This document shows positions 3,085 to 4,422 of a stretch of 44,257 nucleotides of DNA, piece after piece. The DNA is from a virus. The stretch lies in the IMG/VR virus record IMGVR_UViG_3300001750_000001, positions 1-44,257 of that record; one strand, given 5' to 3'. The notes beneath the pieces were generated by a model, which worked only from the letters and a program-made list of their open reading frames with translations, searched no databases and was not told the DNA's origin. Every line of letters begins with the position of its first letter. Position 1 is the stretch's first letter. Made by a program: the position numbers and the translations under genes.

Positions 3085-3343
3085 TTTAACCTCTCAAATT
3101 GTACAATAAGTGTTTTTTACGTTTTACGTTCTTTTTTAAATCCAGGATATTAGTTGGGATGCCCGAACGGTCGGGCATGGCGTCTTTGGTCGTATCTTTT
3201 ATATTTCCTTAAATAAGGCAGCTCTTATATTTCTTGAATATAAACCAATATCTTATATACCGTCCTGGCGGCTAGAGGTAGCGAACCTCCCGATCTTTGA
3301 TTTATTTATATATTTATATCGATCTTATAAATAAATCAAATTT
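3085..3343 (-). ncRNA. Hairpin-rich non-coding segment, possible structured RNA
   Basis: No gene fits here, but five inverted repeats lie within about 185 bases: an 8-bp stem ATGCCCGA/TCGGGCAT at 3159-3178, CCTTA/TAAGG at 3207-3218, TTATATT/AATATAA at 3225-3243, GAGGT/ACCTC at 3275-3289 and a perfect 15-bp arm pair at 3296-3310/3326-3340. The direct repeat ACGTAAA also occurs twice near 3117-3130. It could be an array of terminators or processing sites, or one structured RNA. No known motif is recognised. Confidence 0.45.
3296..3340 (-). terminator. 15-bp inverted repeat after the 119-aa gene
   Basis: Perfect 15-base arms (3296-3310 and 3326-3340) with a 15-base loop begin three bases past the TAA of the leftward gene at 3344-3703. 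The stem is A/T-rich and no T-run follows on the leftward strand, so it is an imperfect intrinsic terminator. It may instead protect the mRNA 3' end. Confidence 0.45.
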
Positions 3344-3703
3344 TTACTCATCAATATCATCAGCTTTTTTCAAATCCGATTCTGAAAGCTCTGAATCTGA
3401 GCTACCATTATATTCATCAGATTTACAAGTCTTAACGGCTTCGAGCAATTCTTCTCTTGTCTCAGCTTTAAATTGAATTAGAAGATCAGTTCCATAGGGA
3501 TATTTTTGACCATCGAACATGGCTTGATAACCCTCAATGTCCATCCTTCTAATCATTTCATCAGCGATTTCTTCTGTTTTACATACAATAGGCAGTATGC
3601 ATTCAGCGGGGGTGGCAGGAACAGCTTCACGTGCTGGAATAGCAGGAGTTCCGGGTTTGTTGATTCCTTTTAAATTCTGTGTGTCTCGTTTTTTGATAAT
3701 CAT
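3344..3703 (-). CDS. Hypothetical protein with Pro/Ala-rich N-terminus and acidic tail (119 aa)
   Basis: The start is placed at ATG 3703, not the in-frame ATG at 3715, because the Shine-Dalgarno GGAGG (3713-3709) lies inside the longer reading and is ideally spaced for 3703. The protein has a Pro/Ala-rich segment, a compact central alpha/beta region (about 35-85) and an acidic Ser/Asp/Glu-rich C-terminus. No family is recognised. The tRNA-like element lies just upstream on the same strand and shares the promoter at 3866-3894. Confidence 0.65.
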   Translation of the reverse strand: MIIKKRDTQNLKGINKPGTPAIPAREAVPATPAECILPIVCKTEEIADEMIRRMDIEGYQAMFDGQKYPYGTDLLIQFKAETREELLEAVKTCKSDEYNGSSDSELSESDLKKADDIDE

Positions 3704-3731
3704 TTTTTCCTCCATTTAGGGGTTAATGAGT

Positions 3732-3841
3732 GAGGATAGACAGGATTCAAACCTGTATGATTAACTGATTCGTTTAGGGTTATGGCACACCTTCGTTAAT
3801 CTCCCATAACTTCAGCGTATATCTGTTTCGCCACTATCCTC
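3732..3841 (-). ncRNA. tRNA-Leu-like RNA with an aberrant anticodon region
   Basis: Read leftward, GAGGATAG pairs with CTATCCTC as an 8-bp acceptor-like stem (9 bp with the flanking T/A). It is followed directly by a 5-bp T-stem (ACAGG/CCTGT, 3740-3756) with loop TTTGAAT. The 5' side TGGCGAAACAGATATACGC resembles the D-arm of tRNA-Leu. The middle is not a normal anticodon arm: GTTATGG/CCATAAC and GATTAAC/GTTAATC are both perfect 7-bp stems whose arms interleave, which is pseudoknot topology. No CCA is encoded. A promoter lies just upstream. It may be a degenerate tRNA or a tRNA mimic. Confidence 0.6.
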
Positions 3842-3865
3842 ATGTTTAAATTAAAATCTAAATTC

Positions 3866-3894
3866 AAACTATAGGAATATTTAGGGTATGTCAA
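3866..3894 (-). promoter_or_regulatory. Leftward sigma70-like promoter for the tRNA-like RNA
   Basis: TTGACA (3894-3889), a 17-base spacer and TAGTTT (3871-3866). Predicted transcription begins about 15-20 bases before the tRNA-like element. The spacer contains CCCTAA near the -35 box, as in the two divergent early promoters. Confidence 0.6.
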
Positions 3895-4393: not shown

Positions 4394-4422
4394 ATTATAT
4401 AGGGTTTTTAGGGATCTGTCAA
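4394..4422 (-). promoter_or_regulatory. Perfect consensus early promoter, leftward
   Basis: TTGACA (4422-4417), exactly 17 bases, TATAAT (4399-4394). This matches the bacterial sigma70 consensus at every position and drives the leftward early block. The spacer carries ATCCCTAA followed by ACCCTA, a word shared with the other early promoters. Confidence 0.85.

Follow-up and report, generated by a model that had tools for sequence, protein, structure and literature searches.

Class II tRNAs, such as tRNA-Leu, are among the closest known counterparts of the RNAs described here, which share with them an acceptor, T8-G9, a D-arm of the form TGGCGGAA..TAGACGC, a T-arm, and a stem ending 2 nt before the T-stem, at the site of the variable arm. 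Yet our RNAs lack an anticodon arm and have a hypervariable middle, and the 5' strand of their variable-arm-like stem lies upstream, inside a predicted pseudoknot. The tmRNA also has a tRNA-like end without anticodon and pseudoknots within the molecule, but it is ~350 nt long, whereas our RNAs span ~95-190 nt, have a D-stem, are Leu-like instead of Ala-like, and show no apparent coding segment. Viral tRNA mimicry involving pseudoknots is known from the tRNA-like structures of plant viruses, where it is the acceptor stem, at the end of the RNA genome, that is pseudoknotted; in our RNAs the pseudoknot replaces the anticodon arm of what is predicted to be the transcript of a DNA phage. T4 species 1 RNA (rnaC) is a stable RNA of the T4 tRNA cluster that ends in a T-arm and an acceptor-like strand (L371:1409-1547, minus strand), but its acceptor is weak, it has no Leu-like D-arm, and a nested hairpin stands by the T-arm, at the variable-arm site, instead of the two interleaved stems (S1 and S2) of our RNAs. 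Having considered both rnaC and rnaD of T4, we rejected them as members of the class. ToxI-type antitoxins and the phage pseudo-ToxI (PMC3475682) are small RNA pseudoknots acting in phage-host conflict, a role that our RNAs may share, but they consist of tandem 36-nt repeats, whereas ours occur in single copy within a tRNA body. Finally, theta ribozymes (PMC10879173) are structured phage RNAs associated with tRNAs and with an interleaved topology, yet they follow an intact tRNA on its 3' side, whereas the pseudoknot of our RNAs is inside the tRNA body and matches no HDV-like family.

The RNA from which this analysis starts lies in a phage record that was analysed over its full length and is called the window hereafter (44,257 bases, G+C 32%, identical 68-bp ends). 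The window encodes a Sak4-like annealing protein, a DUF669 single-strand binding protein, a DNA polymerase and a helicase, and the RNA is present in a single copy, ~1.3 kb upstream of Sak4 (Table 1). A sequence-only reading had proposed, on the minus strand, a tRNA-Leu-like RNA with a 9-bp closing stem, a 5-bp T-stem, a Leu-like D-arm and two 7-bp stems that interleave, and without CCA. All of these stems are present (the closing one being TGAGGATAG/CTATCCTCA, 3731-3842), and no CCA is encoded. The stems GTTATGG/CCATAAC (S1) and GATTAAC/GTTAATC (S2) do interleave, with L1 = 2 nt, L2 = 9 and L3 = 13, and only 1 of 20,000 dinucleotide shuffles of the window middle has two perfect interleaved 7-bp stems. 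Taken alone, the nested fold is 3 SD more stable than shuffles. The promoter that the same reading placed ahead of the RNA holds in part: 15 nt separate the TTGACA at 3893 from TATAGT, and the promoter scan did not list it, but a perfect promoter lies farther upstream and heads, on the minus strand, a series of three small ORFs with the RNA between the second and the third. None of the small ORFs neighbouring the RNA matched a family, and a protein-based search with the adjacent 123-aa ORF returned no relatives. On the same strand, an ORF-poor stretch of ~200 nt with short GC hairpins lies between two small ORFs (3125-3335); its fold is not significant (z = -1.1).

Table 1. Features of the tRNA-like RNA and its surroundings in the window.
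Feature	Position	Strand	Remarks
Whole tRNA-like RNA	3732..3841	-	110 nt; 8-bp closing stem, 9 bp with T3842-A3731; fold z = -3.0
Acceptor, 5' strand GAGGATAG	3834..3841	-	Partner is 3732-3739
T8-G9 and Leu-like D-arm TGGCGAAACAGATATACGC	3815..3833	-	Stem GCG/CGC; compensatory changes of pair 11-24 in the class
S1 of predicted pseudoknot, 5' strand GTTATGG	3804..3810	-	Perfect 7 bp
S2 of predicted pseudoknot, 5' strand GATTAAC	3795..3801	-	Perfect 7 bp
S1 of predicted pseudoknot, 3' strand CCATAAC	3779..3785	-	Pairs with 3810-3804
S2 of predicted pseudoknot, 3' strand GTTAATC	3759..3765	-	2 nt (AT) 5' of the T-stem, as in many class members
T-arm ACAGG-TTTGAAT-CCTGT	3740..3756	-	5-bp T-stem ACAGG/CCTGT, loop TTTGAAT
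Acceptor, 3' strand CTATCCTC	3732..3739	-	No encoded CCA
Sigma-70-like promoter, perfect (TTGACA-17-TATAAT)	4394..4422	-	Heads the small operon containing the RNA
Small ORF, no family found	3344..3715	-	Starts at most 40 nt downstream of the RNA; context only

The window RNA has the acceptor, D-arm and T-arm of a canonical tRNA, but neither ARAGORN nor excision of the insert gave a 5-bp anticodon stem with a 7-nt loop and T33. ARAGORN called neither a tRNA nor a tmRNA in the window, and Rfam found nothing in the window RNA, the tRNA model RF00005 being without match even at E-values up to 10; the conventional call that the sequence-only reading had named as telling against it is thus missing. 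The signs of a tmRNA (RF00023, the ARAGORN call, a coding segment) are also lacking in this RNA, as are the tandem repeats beside a toxN-like gene that characterize ToxI. Of the tRNA-Leu identity set (A73, G18G19, A15-U48, G19-C56), the window RNA departs by C73, A19 and U56. The Rfam models of group I introns and HDV-like ribozymes matched neither the window RNA nor the class members scanned; an HDV-like ribozyme had been considered for its interleaved topology. BLASTN with the window RNA against phages and plasmids gave nothing convincing, and we found no description of the class in the library of open-access papers searched. An RNA class with a constant tRNA body and a variable pseudoknot seems to be undescribed.

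Relatives of the window RNA were recovered by structural scans, not by sequence search. A strict descriptor applied to 1.8 Mb of Sak4-relative loci retained only three convincing long tRNA-like RNAs, those of the window and of two related Sak4 phages (L005:4366-4480 and L087); the Sak4-based relatives of the window phage mostly lack the RNA. A covariance search of genomes with RF00005 missed the long forms. DNA patterns run on viral contigs combined a tRNA D-arm with an over-long middle and the motif GGTTYGAATCC, and left the acceptor free. The Leu-like D-arm pattern recovered at least 195 RNAs without ARAGORN call; of these, 187 have middles no longer than 105 nt, and 169 of the 187 remain once redundancy is removed. 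This pattern-found set is called subclass A; subclass B was found via the T-arm of Leuconostoc and Weissella phages (TAAGG-TGCAAAT-CCTTA) and adds at least 75 RNAs, with few members common to both sets. Besides the window RNA, at least ~260 phage loci have the same plan, in which the D- and T-arms hardly vary, the middle is hypervariable (37-133 nt) and an anticodon arm is lacking, an abundance that is a lower bound since the counts are among the matches listed. The window RNA fits the class definition (a Leu-like D-arm and a T-arm, a paired acceptor, an S2 that stops 2-3 nt short of the T-stem, and an S1 interleaved with it), and its relatives are all distant.

At least four of the 187 were rejected as members, because they resemble genuine tRNAs whose variable arms are very long. 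These RNAs, missed by ARAGORN (L147:2996-3096, minus strand; L169:3498-3596, plus strand; L190; L196), have a Leu-like body, a normal anticodon arm and a variable arm of ~28 nt, with the anticodon GTT in L147 and L169, and the ORFs upstream of them are homologous to each other. The RNA of L005 (plus strand) has a class I D-arm, scores 40.8 bits with RF00005 and lies ~1.5 kb upstream of Sak4, a distance close to that in the window; a 54-nt insert replaces its anticodon arm, and excision gives no canonical arm. Another tRNA-like RNA, of 69 nt (L088:344-412, minus strand), has an encoded CCA, a T-arm and an acceptor, no normal D- or anticodon arm, and a weak match to a tmRNA end.

The predicted tRNA-type body of the class is real. 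Among the matches listed, 189 of 229 pattern matches have acceptors in exact register with at least 6 of 7 Watson-Crick pairs, and shifted registers give 0-6 matches; the acceptors of subclass B are in register in 67 of 75 listed matches, and pair in none at any shift. The D-stem pair 11-24 is mostly C-G, also U-A and A-U, and T-stems of cultured phages vary with compensation (TAAGG/CCTTA, CAAGG/CCTTG, TAGGG/CCCTA, TCAGG/CCTGA). In the listed matches of subclass A, several leucylation determinants are frequent without having been imposed by the pattern (U48 96%, A73 81%, D-loop GG ~92%), most pattern-found members listed carry the tRNA-Leu identity set, and some reach RF00005 scores of 38-43 bits. 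Subclass B has G55, and its residue 73 is free.

Our comparisons show that acceptor, D-arm and T-arm enclose a predicted H-type pseudoknot where a tRNA would have its anticodon and variable arms. Among the matches listed, an S2 of at least 7 bp with a 2-nt (or 3-nt) spacer to the T-stem occurs in 33 of the 169 non-redundant members vs 3.3 in shuffles, and one of at least 6 bp with the same spacer in 64 vs 10.8. The excess recurs in subclass B (non-redundant, among the matches listed), with 36/71 vs 5.1 at 6 bp or more and 22/71 vs 1.1 at 7 bp or more. The shuffles used for S2 keep base composition, those used for the window stems keep dinucleotides, and the strictest control for S1 swaps S2 loops between RNAs. 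Under the latter, the segment 5' of S2 pairs with the S2 loop at a mean dG of -8.19 kcal/mol, compared with -6.92 for swapped loops and -7.42 for the lowest of 60 permutations; the corresponding values in subclass B are -8.56, -7.14 and -8.08. In pairs of close relatives, S2 has six double compensatory changes and two broken pairs, and S1 has one double and five one-sided changes vs one broken pair. S1 is weaker than S2, and around half of the members are within the permuted background for it, but its excess over the swap control and the changes between relatives support it class-wide, although not in every member. L1 is mostly 0-3 nt across the class, as in H-type pseudoknots, and a contiguous variable hairpin is not enriched in the middles. 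When the insert is excised, a canonical anticodon arm reappears in 1-2 of 57-58 Leu-like members, where ~1 is expected, also if long variable arms are allowed. Since no anticodon arm emerged beyond this chance rate, whether or not the insert was excised, the RNAs of the class would be unable to decode. Homologues without the two middle stems, which the sequence-only reading had held to be decisive against it, are not what we found: the pairing is kept while the sequence of the middle changes completely. The class itself is well supported, and from it we infer a function.

Cultured phages of Leuconostoc, Weissella, Enterococcus and Lactobacillus carry members of the class, mostly unannotated. 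In those of Leuconostoc and Enterococcus, close relatives keep the body and the locus but show the middle swapped as a whole. For example, Ln-9 of Leuconostoc and eight related phages (LN34, phiLNTR2, phiLNTR3, CHA, CHB, P974, vL_291, UCMA21115) have flanks, acceptor and T-arm in common and unrelated middles of ~73 vs 45 nt, and alongside the middle a C-G pair of the D-stem becomes A-U. Enterococcus phages EFDG1 and 113 also differ by a swapped middle in a kept body, and a T-A pair of the T-stem in one is C-G in the other. None of the records examined annotates these Leuconostoc and Enterococcus RNAs. Listeria phages LP-101 and LP-114 have related T-arms, and a slightly different D-arm that is outside the D-arm expression used.

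We give an even chance to the reading in which the window RNA and its class are phage-encoded, trans-acting, anticodon-less tRNA mimics whose variable pseudoknot is offered to a host factor that evolves fast. The conserved body would let host tRNA enzymes mature and stabilize the RNA, and would bind a factor reading the elbow or the acceptor. The pseudoknot head would bind or distract the fast-evolving target, most likely an anti-phage effector acting on tRNA, the ribosome or structured RNA. A trans-acting arms-race RNA accounts most easily for our observations, because the body is constant and the head swappable. There are precedents: phage tRNAs counteract tRNA-degrading defences (PMC11555353), and a pseudoknotted phage RNA acts as a mimic of a type III antitoxin (PMC3475682). 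On the other hand, the spread of middle lengths could reflect relaxed constraint, which counts against a mimic. Slightly short of an even chance is, in our view, the broader proposal that phages of many bacterial groups share a counter-defence or host-manipulation system, made of a conserved tRNA scaffold and an interchangeable, diversifying pseudoknot head that related phages exchange as a cassette.

Other explanations account for part of these observations. The RNA could act in cis: as a 5'-leader structure or a tRNA-like punctuation mark, it would either bring RNase P and RNase Z to a polycistronic phage mRNA for cleavage or regulate the next gene. Lone members are tightly placed between same-strand ORFs, which makes such a role possible: among the matches listed, 55% have a same-strand ORF start and 56% an upstream ORF stop within 60 nt, vs 29% and 20% for the last tRNAs of arrays, and the window RNA is itself just upstream of an ORF. 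However, a cut signal requires only the stack of acceptor and T-stem, which leaves a selected pseudoknot and its wholesale swapping unaccounted for, the flanking genes of members are unrelated, and 66 of the members listed are within 1 kb of canonical tRNAs on the same strand; we regard a cis element as unlikely. The absence of a shared flanking gene family also means that no fixed protein partner was seen. Quite unlikely, too, is a leucylated tmRNA-like RNA, delivered charged to the ribosome with the pseudoknot in place of the anticodon, for translation rescue or poisoning. The determinants kept by subclass A are in its favour, and the tRNA-Leu of E. coli is still charged without its anticodon and variable arms (PMC9976931). 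Yet charging is reported to be abolished when A73 becomes C73 or the contact between D- and T-loops is broken (PMC9976931), no coding segment is apparent, and subclass B and the window RNA lack the determinants, which rules out charging as the general function.

The middle might instead be a short intron whose removal restores a normal tRNA. This occurs in a group with class I D-arms from the same scans, where 39-40 of ~100 RNAs regain a canonical anticodon arm vs ~1 expected. In the Leu-like group, including the window, the chance rate of recovery upon excision speaks against such mini-introns, and the 3' strand of S2 abuts the T-arm, leaving no space for a 3' anticodon strand; an intron-bearing tRNA is accordingly improbable here. 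A pseudoknot that mimics type III antitoxin RNAs to neutralize toxins of the ToxN family, with the tRNA body as a stabilizing scaffold, would fit both the pseudoknotted nature of these antitoxins, already mimicked by a phage RNA (PMC3475682), and a hypervariable, swappable head facing a diverse toxin family. We consider it very unlikely, given no sequence match to ToxI-type repeats and a single copy without tandem repeats. As for a degraded tRNA, which the sequence-only reading had put beside a mimic, the anticodon arm is indeed missing, and pseudo-tRNAs are annotated at or near such elements (in LP65, and at a mini-intron tRNA in Ci1). But the plan recurs at the ~260 or more loci with compensatory changes in D- and T-stems and with S1 and S2 still pairing, which makes decay extremely unlikely; the mimic fits these data.

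If the trans-acting mimic is correct, a large class of RNAs is added to phage biology, one that standard annotation skips or labels as pseudo-tRNA. That the head is hypervariable while the tRNA body remains constant suggests a molecular arms race at the level of tRNA or translation, and with natural head swaps available in cultured phages the class can be tested directly. The class may also shed light on tRNA-like stable RNAs long known from phages but lacking an assigned function, such as T4 species 1 RNA.

Finally, the class I inserts are possibly a new kind of mini-intron. They are mostly 40-60 nt long, lie in the anticodon arm, often at 28/29 or 29/30, and frequently contain a hairpin followed by a CAGCAA motif. 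They include L328:904-1026 (plus strand), L303:958-1077 (minus), L308:2476-2591 (plus), L376:2913-3148 (plus) and ~35 others. Citrobacter phage Ci1 has two tRNAs with such mini-introns, one of which is annotated as tRNA-Pseudo.
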